A DNA stretch of 64,000 bases. Origin: Candidatus Chloroploca sp. Khr17. GTDB lineage: Bacteria; Chloroflexota; Chloroflexia; Chloroflexales; Chloroflexaceae. Below the pieces are notes generated by a model that was given only the letters and a program-made list of their open reading frames with translations, was not told the DNA's origin and made no database searches. How positions within the stretch are numbered: the stretch's first letter is position 1; each line of letters begins with the position of its first letter. Below are positions 8,840-15,037 of the stretch, one piece after another. Position numbers and translations under genes: made by a program. The DNA lies in assembly GCF_004138165.1 (NCBI RefSeq), contig NZ_RYFF01000003.1:124001-188000 (forward strand), in the 5' to 3' direction.

Positions 8840-10126
8840 ATGGGTACAAAAAATTCACGGCTCCAGGGATTTTATCAATTAAACCCGTTTGAGCGTTTGC
8901 AGATGGTCAAGTCCTTTGACGGTCTTTGCGAAGAAGATCTCCGGGTTTTGCATGGTGGTCATGGCACCCTGACGATTGAGCGTGCCGACAAGATGATCGA
9001 AAATGTGGTTGGCACCTACAACCTGCCGCTTGGCATCGCAACCAATTTTTTGATCAACGGGCGTGACCATTTGATCCCGATGGTCGTTGAAGAGCCGTCA
9101 ATTGTTGCCGGCGCAAGCTACGCGGCCAGAATGGTACGCGAGGGCGGCGGTTTTGCCACCAATAGCACCGATCCCGTGATGATCGGGCAAATTCAGATTG
9201 TTGGCGTGGCGGCCCCACAGAGTGCGCGCCACGATATTTTCACCCGCAAAGAAGAGATCCTTGCGATCGCCAATGCGCAGAGCCGCTCGCTGGTCGGGCT
9301 TGGCGGCGGTGCCCGTGATCTCGAAGTCAACCTGCATGCAACGAGCCCGATGGGGCCAATGATGGTTGTTCACCTGCTGGTTGATACTCGCGATGCGATG
9401 GGTGCCAACGCGATCAACTCGATGTGCGAGGCTGTTGCCCCGCTTATCGAGCAGATTACCGGCGGGCGCGTCTATCTGCGCATTCTGTCGAATCTCAGTG
9501 ACCGTCGTCTCGCCCGCGCCCGTTGTGTCGTGCCGACCCGCGCCCTCGAACGCGATGGGTTGAGTGGCGAAGAGGTGGCCGAGGGCATTATGTGGGCCTA
9601 TGCCTTTGCCGCCGTTGATCCCTATCGGGCAACCACCCACAACAAGGGCATTCTCAATGGGGTTGACCCGGTGATTGTCGCAACCGGCAACGACTGGCGC
9701 GCCATCGAGGCTGGGGCGCACGCGTATGCTTCACGCAGCGGCCAGTACCGCTCGTTGAGCGTGTGGGAGCGCGATGACGAGGGCAATCTCGTTGGGACAC
9801 TCGAAATGCCGATGGCCGTTGGCATTGTCGGCGGTGCCACCAGGGTGCATCCCGCTGCCCAGACCGCGCTCAAATTGCTTGGGGTGCAGTCAGCCAACGA
9901 ACTGGCCGAGATCTGTGTCGCCGCCGGCCTCGCGAGCAATCTGGCCGCCATGCGTGCCCTCGCCTGCGAAGGGATCAACCGCGGCCATATGGGGCTCCAC
10001 GCACGCCAGATTGCCATGGCCGCCGGTGCCCACGGCCCCCTCGTAGACGAGATCGTTCGCCGGATGGTCGAAGAGCGCAATATCAAACCCGCGCGGGCGG
10101 AAGAGTTGATCGCTGAATTGCGGTAA
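8840..10126 (+). CDS. mvaA: Hydroxymethylglutaryl-CoA reductase, class II-like
   Basis: This 428-residue enzyme makes mevalonate from HMG-CoA, the committed step of the mevalonate route to isoprenoids. It has the soluble class II layout without a membrane anchor. The conserved catalytic residues are visible: Glu54 in ENVVG, Asp185 in DAMGAN, Lys269 in NKGILNG, Asp285 in GNDWRA and the histidine motif GHMGLHARQIA near 382-391. The ribosome site GGAGGAAG precedes the ATG. It is the first gene of a plus-strand run with HMG-CoA synthase and a thiolase-like gene, so the operon covers the upper mevalonate pathway. The stop codon is followed by a dispersed repeat before the next gene. NADH versus NADPH preference cannot be called. 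Confidence 0.95.
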   Translation: MGTKNSRLQGFYQLNPFERLQMVKSFDGLCEEDLRVLHGGHGTLTIERADKMIENVVGTYNLPLGIATNFLINGRDHLIPMVVEEPSIVAGASYAARMVREGGGFATNSTDPVMIGQIQIVGVAAPQSARHDIFTRKEEILAIANAQSRSLVGLGGGARDLEVNLHATSPMGPMMVVHLLVDTRDAMGANAINSMCEAVAPLIEQITGGRVYLRILSNLSDRRLARARCVVPTRALERDGLSGEEVAEGIMWAYAFAAVDPYRATTHNKGILNGVDPVIVATGNDWRAIEAGAHAYASRSGQYRSLSVWERDDEGNLVGTLEMPMAVGIVGGATRVHPAAQTALKLLGVQSANELAEICVAAGLASNLAAMRALACEGINRGHMGLHARQIAMAAGAHGPLVDEIVRRMVEERNIKPARAEELIAELR

Positions 10127-10284: not shown

Positions 10285-11334
10285 ATGATGAAACCAGAAC
10301 GCCCGGTTGGGCTGATTGGCTACGGGGCGTATGTTCCCCGCTATCGCATCGCTGCGCGTGAGATTGCGCGCATCTGGACTGATGGGCAGGGTGGGGTGCC
10401 CGTGGATGCCAAGAGTGTGCCGGGCCCTGATGAAGATACGATTACGCTCTCGATCGAGGCCGCGCGCAATGCCCTGGCACGCGCCGGGGTCACGATCGAA
10501 CAGGTGAGCGCGGTCTGGGTCGGCAGTGAGAGCCATCCATATAGTGTGAAGCCTTCGGGCACGATCGTGGCCGAGGCCCTCGGGGCGACGCCATGGGTGA
10601 GCGCTGCCGACTTTGAGTTTGCCTGCAAAGCGGGCAGCGAGGCGCTGACCGCAGCGATGGCCCTGGTGGGCAGCGGGATGGCTACGTATGCCATGGCGAT
10701 CGGGGCCGATACGGCGCAGAGCCGCCCCAGCGATGCGCTGGAATATACCGCGTCGGCAGGGGCAGGGGCGCTGCTGATCGGGCCAGCCGAAGAGTCTGTG
10801 GCAACGATTGATGCAACCGTGAGCTATGTGAGCGATACGCCCGACTTCTTCCGGCGCGCCGATCGCCCCTACCCTGTCCATGGCAATCGCTTTACCGGCG
10901 AGCCGGCCTACTTTCACCAGATCCAATCGGCGGCCCAACGCTTGATGAGCGATCTGGGCAAGACCGCCAAGGATTTCACCTACGCGATCTTCCACCAGCC
11001 GAATGCCAAGTTCCCTCAGGCCGTCGCCAAACGCCTGGGTTTTAGCGATAGTCAGATTGCGCCCGGCTTGCTCAGCCCACAGATCGGCAATACCTACTCG
11101 GGCGCGGCTATGGTCGGCCTGTGTGCAACACTTGACGTTGCGCAACCCGGCGAGACCATCTTTATCACGACCTACGGCAGCGGCGCTGGCTCGGATGCTT
11201 ATGCGCTCACCGTCACCGAGCAGATCCTCGAGCGGCGCAACCGTGCCCCGCTGACCGAGGCCTACCTCAAACGGCAGGTCTTTATTGACTATGCGGTCTA
11301 TGCGAAATGGATCGGCAAACTCGTCATGGGGTAA
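10285..11334 (+). CDS. Hydroxymethylglutaryl-CoA synthase (archaeal-type)
   Basis: A 349-residue thiolase-fold enzyme condensing acetyl-CoA with acetoacetyl-CoA. It resembles the archaeal HMG-CoA synthase branch, beginning VGLIGYGAYVPRYRI. Catalytic residues fit: Glu82 in GSESHPY, Cys114 in EFACKAGSEA, His237 in FHQPNAKFP, plus the NTYSGAAMVGL and TYGSGAGSDAY loops. An in-frame start at 10126 would add 53 residues encoded by the dispersed repeat; ATG at 10285 with AGAGAAGGA upstream is preferred and matches where homology begins. In archaea this enzyme works in a complex with a thiolase and a DUF35 protein; both homologues lie downstream, although each has lost key residues here, so the synthase may be the only active member of such a complex. 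Confidence 0.93.
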   Translation: MMKPERPVGLIGYGAYVPRYRIAAREIARIWTDGQGGVPVDAKSVPGPDEDTITLSIEAARNALARAGVTIEQVSAVWVGSESHPYSVKPSGTIVAEALGATPWVSAADFEFACKAGSEALTAAMALVGSGMATYAMAIGADTAQSRPSDALEYTASAGAGALLIGPAEESVATIDATVSYVSDTPDFFRRADRPYPVHGNRFTGEPAYFHQIQSAAQRLMSDLGKTAKDFTYAIFHQPNAKFPQAVAKRLGFSDSQIAPGLLSPQIGNTYSGAAMVGLCATLDVAQPGETIFITTYGSGAGSDAYALTVTEQILERRNRAPLTEAYLKRQVFIDYAVYAKWIGKLVMG

Positions 11335-11427: not shown

Positions 11428-12591
11428 ATGCGACCATCATATATTGTGAGTGCTGCGGCAACTGCGGTTGGCGAACATTATGCACGCAGTCTGAGCGATC
11501 TGGCGAGTGAGGCGGTACGTAGCGCGTTTGCCGCCCTACCCGAGGTAAGCCCCGAGCGCGTTGGGGCGCTTTTTGTCGCGAATGCCATGGGTGAGGCGCT
11601 GGCAAGTCAGGGGCAACTCGGGGCGTATCTAGCCAACGCCGTCGGGTTGCGTGGGGTGCCTGCGTTCCGGGTTGAGGCCGCCGGCGCGAGTGGCGGGGTT
11701 GCGTTACACCAAGCTGCCCAGGCGATTGCAACGGGGCAGTGCGACCTTGTTGTCGTCCTAGGAGCCGAAAAGGTGACCGATCGCCTTGAAGGGGCGCTCG
11801 AAGCAGCGCTCGCGCTGCATACCGACGCCGAGGCCGAGGCGATCCACGGGTTGACGCTGACCTCGCAGTGGGCGCTGCTGATGCGGCGGTATATGCACGA
11901 ATACAACTATGGCCTCGAAGCCTTTGCGCCCTTCCCGGTCAATGCGCATGCCAATGCAGCAAAAAATCCGCAGGCGCTCTACCGGTTTGCGATCAACGCC
12001 GACAAGTACCGCAAAGCCGGGATGGTCGCCTCGCCACTGAATATGCTCGATTGCAGCACCGTCGCCGATGGGGCCGCATGTGTCATCCTCGCGGCTGAAT
12101 CGCTTGCCCGCGAGCTCCCCGGGCCACTCATCCGGCTGGCTGGCACCGCCGTCGCCACCGATACGCCTTCGCTGGGCGCACGCCGTAACCCGCTCGATCT
12201 TGAAGCAGCGCGGGCCAGTGCCCACGTTGCGCTTGGACGTGCCCATTTGGGCCTCAGCAATGTGCAAGTCTTTGAGTTGAGTGACCCTCACGGCATTGCG
12301 GCCACGCTTGCGCTCGAGTCAATCGGCTCCTACGACCGCGGCGAAGCTCCGCGGCACGCCGCCGACGGGGCCATTGCCCCAACCGGGCGCACGCCGCTCG
12401 CCACGGCAGGCGGCTACAAAGCCCGTGGCGACATCGTCGGCGCCAGTGGCGTCTACCAGGTCGTCGAACTGGTACGCCAGTTGCGCGGCGAAGCCGGCCC
12501 AACCCAGGTCGCCGACGCCCGCGTTGGGCTGGCGCAGACGCTCGGTGGCCTTGGGGCAACCGCAGCAACCGCCGTCATCGTCGCTGAGTAA
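11428..12591 (+). CDS. Thiolase-fold protein lacking the catalytic residues
   Basis: A 387-residue member of the SCP2/archaeal acetoacetyl-CoA thiolase branch by fold motifs (VEAAGASGG, SQWALLMRRYMHEY, DGAACVILA, GGLGATAATAV). The active site looks dismantled. The nucleophilic Cys expected in VEAACASGG is Gly86 (codon GGC where TGC is expected). The His of the usual EVHDAF motif is Ser285 in FELSDPHG. The His of the usual KGHPVGATG motif is Asp335 in ARGDIVGASG. Length and framework are otherwise intact, without frameshift. The start at 11428 follows AAGGAGATGT. It lies between HMG-CoA synthase and Yip1/DUF35 genes, so a structural role in an HMG-CoA synthase complex is plausible. An undetected alternative chemistry cannot be excluded. 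Confidence 0.85.
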   Translation: MRPSYIVSAAATAVGEHYARSLSDLASEAVRSAFAALPEVSPERVGALFVANAMGEALASQGQLGAYLANAVGLRGVPAFRVEAAGASGGVALHQAAQAIATGQCDLVVVLGAEKVTDRLEGALEAALALHTDAEAEAIHGLTLTSQWALLMRRYMHEYNYGLEAFAPFPVNAHANAAKNPQALYRFAINADKYRKAGMVASPLNMLDCSTVADGAACVILAAESLARELPGPLIRLAGTAVATDTPSLGARRNPLDLEAARASAHVALGRAHLGLSNVQVFELSDPHGIAATLALESIGSYDRGEAPRHAADGAIAPTGRTPLATAGGYKARGDIVGASGVYQVVELVRQLRGEAGPTQVADARVGLAQTLGGLGATAATAVIVAE

Positions 12592-12716
12592 GGATTGGCG
12601 CCTTGGCGTCAAGCTGTACGTTTCGCTCTTCATGCACTACAATGAAACCAAGACCCTGACCCTCGCAAGGGGTGGATCTTGCGCTACGTACCCGCGCTTT
12701 CTACAGGAGCCAAACC

Positions 12717-13370
12717 ATGATTCAGGAAATGATCAACGGCAGCGTCGGTGTGCTGAGTAAACCTTCGGTGGCGACCTTCGAGGAATATGAGAAAGATAAT
12801 CTGGGTTGGGCATTGATCTACTCGGTGCTCGCCGGGGTGATCAATGCGATCATTAGTGGCATTCAGTTCGCGCTTTTTCCACCAGCCGCCGTCAATCCGC
12901 AAGATTTAGGCGATATCCCCCCGGAACTGGCCGAGTTGCTCGGCGGGATGAGCACCGGCGCAGCCGCGACCCCCAGCATCTGGGCCTCGGTTATCGGGGC
13001 AATCGTCTTTACGCCCCTCATTCTGCTGATTGCCTGGGGCATTACCTTTGCCCTTGGACGTGCGTTTGGGGGCACCGGCAAGTTTGGTGAACTGGCCTAC
13101 AATATGTCGCTCTTTGGGGCACCCATTACGGTGATCGGGAGCCTGCTGGGCCTCATTCCATTCCTTGGTGGCATCGCGGCATTTGCGCTCTTTATCTACA
13201 ATCTCTACCTCACCTATCTCGCGATCCAGGCTGGCATGAACCTGCCGGGCAATAAGGCTCTGTACGTCATTCTGATCCAGTTTGCCATCGGGATCGCCAT
13301 CGGCCTCTGCTTTTTCCTTTTCTTTGCCCTCATGATCGCAGCCATTATTGGCGCGGCTGGTGGGGTCTGA
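12717..13370 (+). CDS. Yip1-domain integral membrane protein
   Basis: A 217-residue protein with an N-terminal amphipathic stretch containing ATFEEYEKDNLGWALIYSVL, typical of bacterial Yip1-family proteins, followed by about five hydrophobic helices. The start at 12717 has a CAGGAGCC ribosome site. It lies in the same orientation between the thiolase-like and DUF35 genes of the mevalonate operon, 28 nt before the latter. Function in bacteria is unknown for this family. Its position suggests a role at the membrane linked to isoprenoid synthesis, but this is only context. Confidence 0.75.
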   Translation: MIQEMINGSVGVLSKPSVATFEEYEKDNLGWALIYSVLAGVINAIISGIQFALFPPAAVNPQDLGDIPPELAELLGGMSTGAAATPSIWASVIGAIVFTPLILLIAWGITFALGRAFGGTGKFGELAYNMSLFGAPITVIGSLLGLIPFLGGIAAFALFIYNLYLTYLAIQAGMNLPGNKALYVILIQFAIGIAIGLCFFLFFALMIAAIIGAAGGV

Positions 13371-13397: not shown

Positions 13398-13793
13398 ATG
13401 GAAATTGCTCGTCACTGGCGCCAACGCGCCGCACGCTATCGGTTGCAAGGTCAACGTCATCGTGAAACTGGTGAAGTTCGCTTTCCCGCTCAGCCCCCGG
13501 CCATCGGCGAAGATCCGGCGGTGTGGGAAGCCGTTGAGCTTAGTGGGCGCGGCGAACTCTATAGCTTCAGTGTGCTCCGTCAGGGGCCTGATGGCTATGA
13601 GGGGCTCGTGCCTTACCCGGTCGGGATGGTGCGCCTTGAAGAAGGCCCACTGGTCGCGGCCCAGTTGACCGATTGCGCCGAGGCCGATCTTGCGATTGGT
13701 CAATCCGTCGAGATGGTGACCCGTCAGTTGCTCGATACCGGCGAAGATAATGTGCTCGTCTATGGGTACAAGTTTCGCCCGGTGCTTGTGTAA
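13398..13793 (+). CDS. DUF35 OB-fold protein without zinc-ribbon cysteines
   Basis: A 131-residue homologue of the DUF35 proteins that bridge thiolase and HMG-CoA synthase in archaea and partner acyl-CoA enzymes elsewhere. The N-terminal helix ([15 protein letters not shown]), the linker FPAQP and the OB-fold segment [14 protein letters not shown] are recognisable. The zinc ribbon is eroded: the usual CxxCG after YRLxG reads HRETG, and the second CxxC reads AIGED, so no zinc ligand pair remains. The ribosome site is GAGGAG. It closes the set thiolase-like, Yip1, DUF35 downstream of HMG-CoA synthase and probably acts as a structural bridge. Confidence 0.8.
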
Positions 13794-13798
13794 GCGCA

Positions 13799-15037
13799 AT
13801 GTCAACTGTTGCCCTCTACAATCTGACCATGATCGAGCTCGAAACCCTGCTGCGTGACTTGGGCCAGCCCGCCTTTCGCGCGAAACAGTTGTATCGTCAA
13901 CTTTATGTCAATCTAGCCGGCGATGCGATGACGATGACCGATCTGCCGCTCGCCCTGCGCGAGCGGCTCGCCAACGAGGTGCGCCTGGGAGCGTTGCAGC
14001 TTGAACGGGTGCAAGAGACCGATCAGGGGCTGACGCGCAAGGCGCTCTTTCGGCTGCACGACGGGGCTGTGCTCGAAACCGTGTTGATGATCTATCCTGA
14101 TCGCGCAACCGTCTGCGTCAGTACGCAGGCTGGTTGCGCGATGGGCTGCGATTTCTGCGCCACCGGCAAGCTCGGTCTGTTACGGAATCTGACGGTGGGC
14201 GAGATCGTCGAACAGGCGCTCTGGGCTTCACGTGAGTTGCGGAAGTGGCAGGCAAGCCTGGTGGCCCCTGGCGCAACCGACAGCCAACTCGAGGCACCCC
14301 CTGCGACAAGCCGGGCCAGACAACAAGCCTTGCCGCGCCCCGAGGCCACCCGAACCGACGACGATGGGCAGTGGTGGGGCGGCGAAGGCGAGGCCTTTAC
14401 CGAACGGGTCACGCACCAGGTCGCCAGGGTGACGAATCTGGTCTTTATGGGCATGGGTGAACCGTTCGCCAACTACGACCGCTGGTGGGCAGCCGTCGAG
14501 CGCCTGCACGATCCACAGGGCTTCAACCTTGGCGCACGGAGCATGACCGTCTCGACGGTCGGACTTGTGCCAGGCATCAGGCGCCTGGCCGAAGCTCCCT
14601 TGCCAATCAGCCTGGCAATCTCGTTGCATGCACCCGACGATGCGCTGCGCAGCGCAATGATGCCGATCAACCAGCGGTATCCGCTGGTCGAATTGCTTGA
14701 GGCAACCCGAGACTATATCGACCAGACTGGGCGACGGGTCAGCTTTGAATATGTGCTGCTGCAGGGGCGCAACGACCACCCGCACCAAGCGCTTGCCCTC
14801 GCCCGCTTGCTCCGTGGTCAGAGCGTCAGCAGAGGGGCGCCCTTGCTCTGCCATGTCAACCTGATCCCGTGGAACCCCGTGCCAGGCATGCCGCTCGGCC
14901 GCTCAGAGCGCGAACGCGTGACGGCCTTCCAGCAAGTCTTGCTCGACTATGGCATCGCCTGCACCGTCCGGATCGAACGAGGCGTCGCCATTGCCGCCGC
15001 CTGCGGGCAACTCGCAGGCACCTCAGTCCCAAGTTAA
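13799..15037 (+). CDS. rlmN: Dual-specificity RNA methyltransferase RlmN with an internal insertion
   Basis: This 412-residue radical SAM enzyme methylates C2 of A2503 in 23S rRNA and A37 of some tRNAs. The [4Fe-4S] motif CAMGCDFC is at residues 113-120, and the two cysteines of the RlmN mechanism are Cys106 (TVCVSTQ) and Cys402 (AACGQL). FMGMGEP, STVG and HAP motifs follow in normal order. A hydrophilic segment of roughly 55 residues (about 150-205), rich in Ala, Pro, Arg and Gly, interrupts the normal spacing between the iron-sulfur motif and [12 protein letters not shown]. The ATG lies 6 nt after the DUF35 stop with no clear ribosome site, suggesting coupled translation; a second ATG at 13829 would remove conserved N-terminal residues. 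Confidence 0.93.

Follow-up and report, generated by a model that had tools for sequence, protein, structure and literature searches.

The window, a 64,000-nucleotide stretch of contig NZ_RYFF01000003.1 from Candidatus Chloroploca sp. Khr17, carries a thiolase-fold gene within an HMG-CoA synthase gene cluster. The protein lacks all three catalytic residues of its relatives and is called pseudothiolase here. The features of the locus are as follows.

8840 to 10126, forward strand: HMG-CoA reductase (HMGR) of the degradative, class II type (PF00368, E=1e-114; TIGR00532, 442 bits, cut-off 260)
10288 to 11334, forward strand: archaeal-type HMG-CoA synthase (HMGS) with catalytic Glu81, Cys113 and His236 intact (TIGR00748, 496 bits, cut-off 353; 6esq_I, E=2e-122)
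11428 to 12591, forward strand: pseudothiolase, archaeal/SCP2-like thiolase fold, 387 aa (PF22691, PF00108; 7yvy, E=3.5e-79)
11683 to 11685, forward strand: Gly86 codon (Cys in active thiolases)
11869 to 11871, forward strand: Trp148 codon (Asn in active Chloroflexota thiolases)
12280 to 12291, forward strand: codons of S285, D286, P287 and H288 (H-D-A-F in active thiolases)
12430 to 12432, forward strand: Asp335 codon (His of the GHP motif in active thiolases)
12672 to 13370, forward strand: membrane protein with a Yip1 domain, encoded between the genes for pseudothiolase and DUF35 (PF04893, E=8e-15)
13398 to 13793, forward strand: DUF35/OB-fold partner (PF01796), all four zinc-ribbon Cys replaced

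For HMGS, the ATG at 10288 was chosen over the one at 10126, as its homologues are about 348 aa long. Ahead of its ATG, the pseudothiolase gene has a GGAG ribosome-binding site, and its open frame translates without interruption. The genes for all three subunits of the thiolase/HMGCS/DUF35 complex were thus clustered, in the window and in its relatives. In all but one of the Chloroflexales loci that extended far enough, the order was HMGS, pseudothiolase, DUF35; in the remaining one, no HMGS lay in the 1.5 kb upstream of the pseudothiolase, and an HMGS fragment was found on another contig of the same genome. The Yip1 gene interrupted the cluster in only part of the genomes of the same family. 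The sequence-only reading had described an intact frame inside an HMG-CoA synthase operon, at the place where archaeal mevalonate operons have the active thiolase, and this description was correct.

The pseudothiolase scored above the Pfam cut-offs for PF00108 and PF22691 and so has the thiolase fold, but it missed the NCBIfam thiolase cut-offs, with 335 bits for PRK06064 (cut-off 420) and 276 for AcCoTHIOL_METTL (cut-off 600). Its catalytic positions were read from phmmer alignments with the Pyrococcus (7yvy) and Methanothermococcus (6esq) thiolases. The nucleophilic Cys is replaced by Gly86 (EAAGASGG versus EAACASGG), the His of the HDAF/HDCF motif by Ser285 (ELSDPH versus EVHDAF), and the His of the GHP motif by Asp335 (KARGDIVG versus KARGHPVG). 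The protein therefore has neither the nucleophile nor either His of an archaeal-type acetoacetyl-CoA thiolase. These alignments confirmed the three losses at the residue numbers and coordinates proposed from the sequence, and revealed no shifted Cys or His that could replace them at the three positions. Close by, a single His has been gained, His288, which aligns with the Phe of HDAF. Beyond the triad, the pseudothiolase has lost two more pocket residues found in active relatives, Phe144 and Asn148.

Despite these losses, the predicted structure closely resembles that of an active thiolase. The AlphaFold2 monomer model of the pseudothiolase (pLDDT 96.5) matched 6esq_A best, with a Z score of 62.5 and an rmsd of 1.2 over 384 aligned residues, followed by 7yvy (58.1). 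The DUF35 model was poorer (pLDDT 82.6), and the DUF35 chains of 6esq were its best match. By sequence or fold, each of the three proteins best matched its counterpart chain in the archaeal complex (6esq/6et9). In the archaeal complex, CoA occupies an interface to which all three proteins contribute (PMC6392133). The Chloroploca cluster resembles the archaeal system in encoding all three counterparts, which here would form a putative complex, as judged from genes and monomer models. The fold of the thiolase subunit and the catalytic residues of HMGS are likewise kept. The differences are that the thiolase subunit lacks the Cys and both His, so that no thiolase step is expected, and that its DUF35 partner lacks the zinc-binding Cys.

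The same gene was carried by Candidatus Chloroploca, Viridilinea and Oscillochloris records, and its conservation was examined in 54 Chloroflexales sequences from four families. Position 86 was Gly in 51 of the 52 sequences readable there, with one Thr. Among 53 sequences, position 285 was Ser in 24, Thr in 26, Cys in two and His in one, and position 335 was Asp in 52 and Asn in one; the exceptional His285 and Asn335 occurred together on a single branch. The substitutions reported for the window were therefore fixed or nearly so in related genomes, if Ser, Thr and Cys are taken together at 285 (52 of 53). Two further residues were invariant (53 of 53): Trp148 in place of the Asn of active Chloroflexota thiolases, and His288 in place of their Phe. 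The pocket has thus not merely drifted, but has been altered and then fixed anew.

Selection on the gene was estimated by the NG86 method in close Chloroflexales pairs. The pseudothiolase gave dN/dS values of 0.03-0.14, usually two to three times those of HMGS, which ranged from 0.009 to 0.048 across these pairs. In a pair with active operon thiolases, the value was 0.037, against 0.039 for HMGS. Over larger distances, the ratio of thiolase to HMGS distance was 1.75 in Chloroflexales and 1.80 in other Cys-less lineages, compared with 1.04 in genomes with an active operon thiolase. Constraint on the pseudothiolase is relaxed yet still strong, and the gene is under purifying selection. With its catalytic residues lost and its gene conserved in this way, the protein shows the sequence hallmarks of a pseudoenzyme.

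A survey of Chloroflexota placed these losses in a wider context. An intact thiolase with Cys and both His (CHH), accompanied by HMGS and a DUF35 with zinc-ribbon Cys, was found at ten other loci in seven families. HMGS-linked copies without the Cys were found at twelve loci in five families outside Chloroflexales, with the residue triads GHF, GYF, GYN, DHN, DHH, EHF, ESF and GTN. All Cys-less operon copies formed one clade (support 95/95), which persisted at 85/87 in a tree built without two long rows and the columns of the motifs. A single ancestral loss of the Cys is therefore likely, though not certain. The Chloroflexales subclade had 100/100 support in both trees and was reached by a stem branch of 0.45. 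Loss of the Cys is older than the Chloroploca sp. Khr17 genome and extends beyond it, with incomplete losses in the five other families. In six genomes, a CHH copy was present elsewhere in addition to the Cys-less copy of the operon. These free-standing copies lay away from HMGS and DUF35, and no DUF35 gene was found near them.

A second thiolase-like group in Chloroflexota (L132, L133, L065 and L066, with the fragment L068) has Thr for the Cys, keeps both His and is not near HMGS. L065, L066 and L068 were considered as decay intermediates and rejected, as L065 and L066 grouped with L132 and L133 in a clade of their own and do not lie near HMGS.

The DUF35 partner has changed as well. At all Chloroflexales loci the four zinc Cys were gone and the OB part was conserved, so the four-Cys zinc ribbon of the thiolase/HMGCS/DUF35 complex is missing. 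Every DUF35 structure known in 2019 binds zinc (PMC6996347), and in the steroid aldolase Sal the zinc loop packs against the thiolase-fold subunit (PMC12329534). Cys-less lineages outside Chloroflexales retained the ribbon wherever a DUF35 was found, except in one, whose frame seems to begin downstream of it. Loss of the ribbon following loss of the thiolase pocket would fit this pattern.

HMGS showed no comparable decay. Its catalytic Glu, Cys and His were conserved in 81, 83 and 81 of 83 HMGS matches, respectively, as expected for the synthase of an archaeal-type complex. Dxr was absent from all 61 genomes of the set, and the mevalonate pathway therefore appears to be needed; the class Chloroflexi has been described as dependent on mevalonate (PMC3857490). 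HMGS and the pseudothiolase were jointly absent from five genomes (G024, G044, G049, G052 and G059), which is weak evidence of a link, given that the two genes lie side by side and that several genomes are drafts. HMGR was still present in the first four. A search of the genomes without the operon for a replacement HMGS (PF01154, TIGR01835) found a single PF01154-type gene, which belongs to the draft G052. The near-complete Chloroflexales assemblies G024, G044 and G049 thus presented HMGR with no HMGS found and no Dxr; an assembly gap or a replacement may account for this.

If the operon subunit is inactive, acetoacetyl-CoA would have to come from elsewhere. No second archaeal-type thiolase was found in the Khr17 genome. 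It does encode three thiolases of the classical type, all with intact motifs, and an acetoacetyl-CoA reductase-like gene follows one of them. Judging from these motifs, the three ordinary enzymes could supply acetoacetyl-CoA. At least one classical thiolase was present in 60 of the 61 genomes. One small genome had a single intact copy, and none was seen in a relative of it that is 92% complete, which may reflect a gap.

Taken together, we consider it probable that the pseudothiolase has been retained as a structural or CoA-docking subunit of HMGS in an assembly of the thiolase/HMGCS/DUF35 type. The Chloroflexota HMGS would have evolved within a three-protein complex, its CoA site built from all three subunits. 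Although HMGS alone would make HMG-CoA, it would need the pseudothiolase for folding, assembly or CoA docking. Separate ordinary thiolases would make acetoacetyl-CoA, which would reach HMGS from solution. Once another thiolase supplied this substrate, the thiolase reaction could be lost; if HMGS inherited its dependence on the three-subunit site, the subunit would therefore be kept. A precedent is PhlABC, the acyltransferase of Pseudomonas protegens (PDB 5m3k), which is built from the same three protein families and in which one of two thiolase-fold subunits lacks catalytic residues and is likely required for assembly (PMC6392133). PhlABC is otherwise a mirror image, as its HMGS-like PhlA is dead and its thiolase PhlC works, and it does not use CoA. 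The sequence-only reading had suggested a scaffold or substrate-channel subunit for HMGS. The scaffold or CoA-docking part is the simplest reading of a gene conserved under purifying selection beside an intact HMGS, whereas a channel in the archaeal sense is unlikely because a dead thiolase yields no product to channel.

A passive scaffold by itself does not predict the re-fixed Trp148, His288 and Asp335. These residues may seal the emptied pocket or signal a new function, and they may leave room for a role beyond passive scaffolding. One possibility, which we regard as unlikely, is a pocket remodeled for a new reaction, in which Ser/Thr/Cys285, His288, Asp335 and Trp148 would form a new active site that works on a CoA thioester (as a hydrolase, decarboxylase or aldolase, for instance), just as Ltp2 and Sal acquired new active sites within a thiolase fold. 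Such a site would explain the near-complete fixation of these residues and the long stem branch before the Chloroflexales clade. Ltp2 and Sal (PDB 6ok1, 9myr) also combine a thiolase fold with a DUF35 partner, and Sal is active with its partner despite Gly at the Cys position (PMC12329534). However, these aldolases are defined by a catalytic Tyr in a Y-D-[HC]-[FY] motif (PMC12329534), YDHF or YDCY, which the Chloroflexales protein lacks; its motif is [S/T/C]-D-[P/Q]-H, mostly [S/T]DPH. They also serve steroid degradation, while the pseudothiolase gene sits with HMGS. Position 285 varies freely among Ser, Thr and Cys, and one branch has His285 and Asn335. The same positions drift in sister Cys-less lineages, the zinc ribbon used for packing in Sal is lost, and, in contrast to active thiolases, the gene changes more rapidly than HMGS. 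A more specific form, in which the Chloroflexales protein would still be a working enzyme, acting through this new site in the old pocket on a CoA thioester, coupled to HMGS, seems less probable still. Absence of the nucleophilic Cys in a thiolase fold is also seen in ST0096 (4yzo) and TbSLP (5ab4); unlike the pseudothiolase, ST0096 keeps both His and has Ser aligned at the Cys position.

A regulatory subunit that binds acetyl-CoA, CoA or acetoacetyl-CoA unreacted and tunes HMGS activity also appears improbable. It would be served by the same conservation and operon data, and a re-fixed non-catalytic pocket would suit ligand sensing, but Asn148 and other pocket residues of the active relatives are gone. 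That the protein is still a thiolase, working through other residues, is very doubtful: the modeled fold appears intact, but the nucleophile, both His, Phe144 and Asn148 were lost together, and absence of the Cys has become fixed. A sequencing error or decaying pseudogene is refuted by these data, as the same residue losses occur in independent assemblies, two more of Chloroploca and about 50 of other Chloroflexales, with intact frames and the low dN/dS given above.

We found no report in the open-access literature of a thiolase pseudoenzyme or of this operon in Chloroflexi. What appears to be new here is the grouping of the Cys-less operon thiolases in one clade, the intact free-standing copies elsewhere and the loss of the DUF35 zinc ribbon. 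The archaeal thiolase/HMGCS complex is explained through acetoacetyl-CoA channelling. Here, the thiolase residues have been removed and the subunit kept across an order that lacks Dxr and apparently depends on mevalonate. Catalysis is thereby set apart from structural or CoA docking, the other role that the thiolase subunit might have, and this other role becomes open to test. The annotation of the gene product as an acetyl-CoA acetyltransferase, which it is unlikely to be, is corrected as well, and a graded record of decay is seen inside one phylum.

Downstream of the cluster, positions 13799 to 15037 encode an RlmN-like protein with, judged by eye, a long insert that lies about 30 or more residues past the CxxxCxxC motif.
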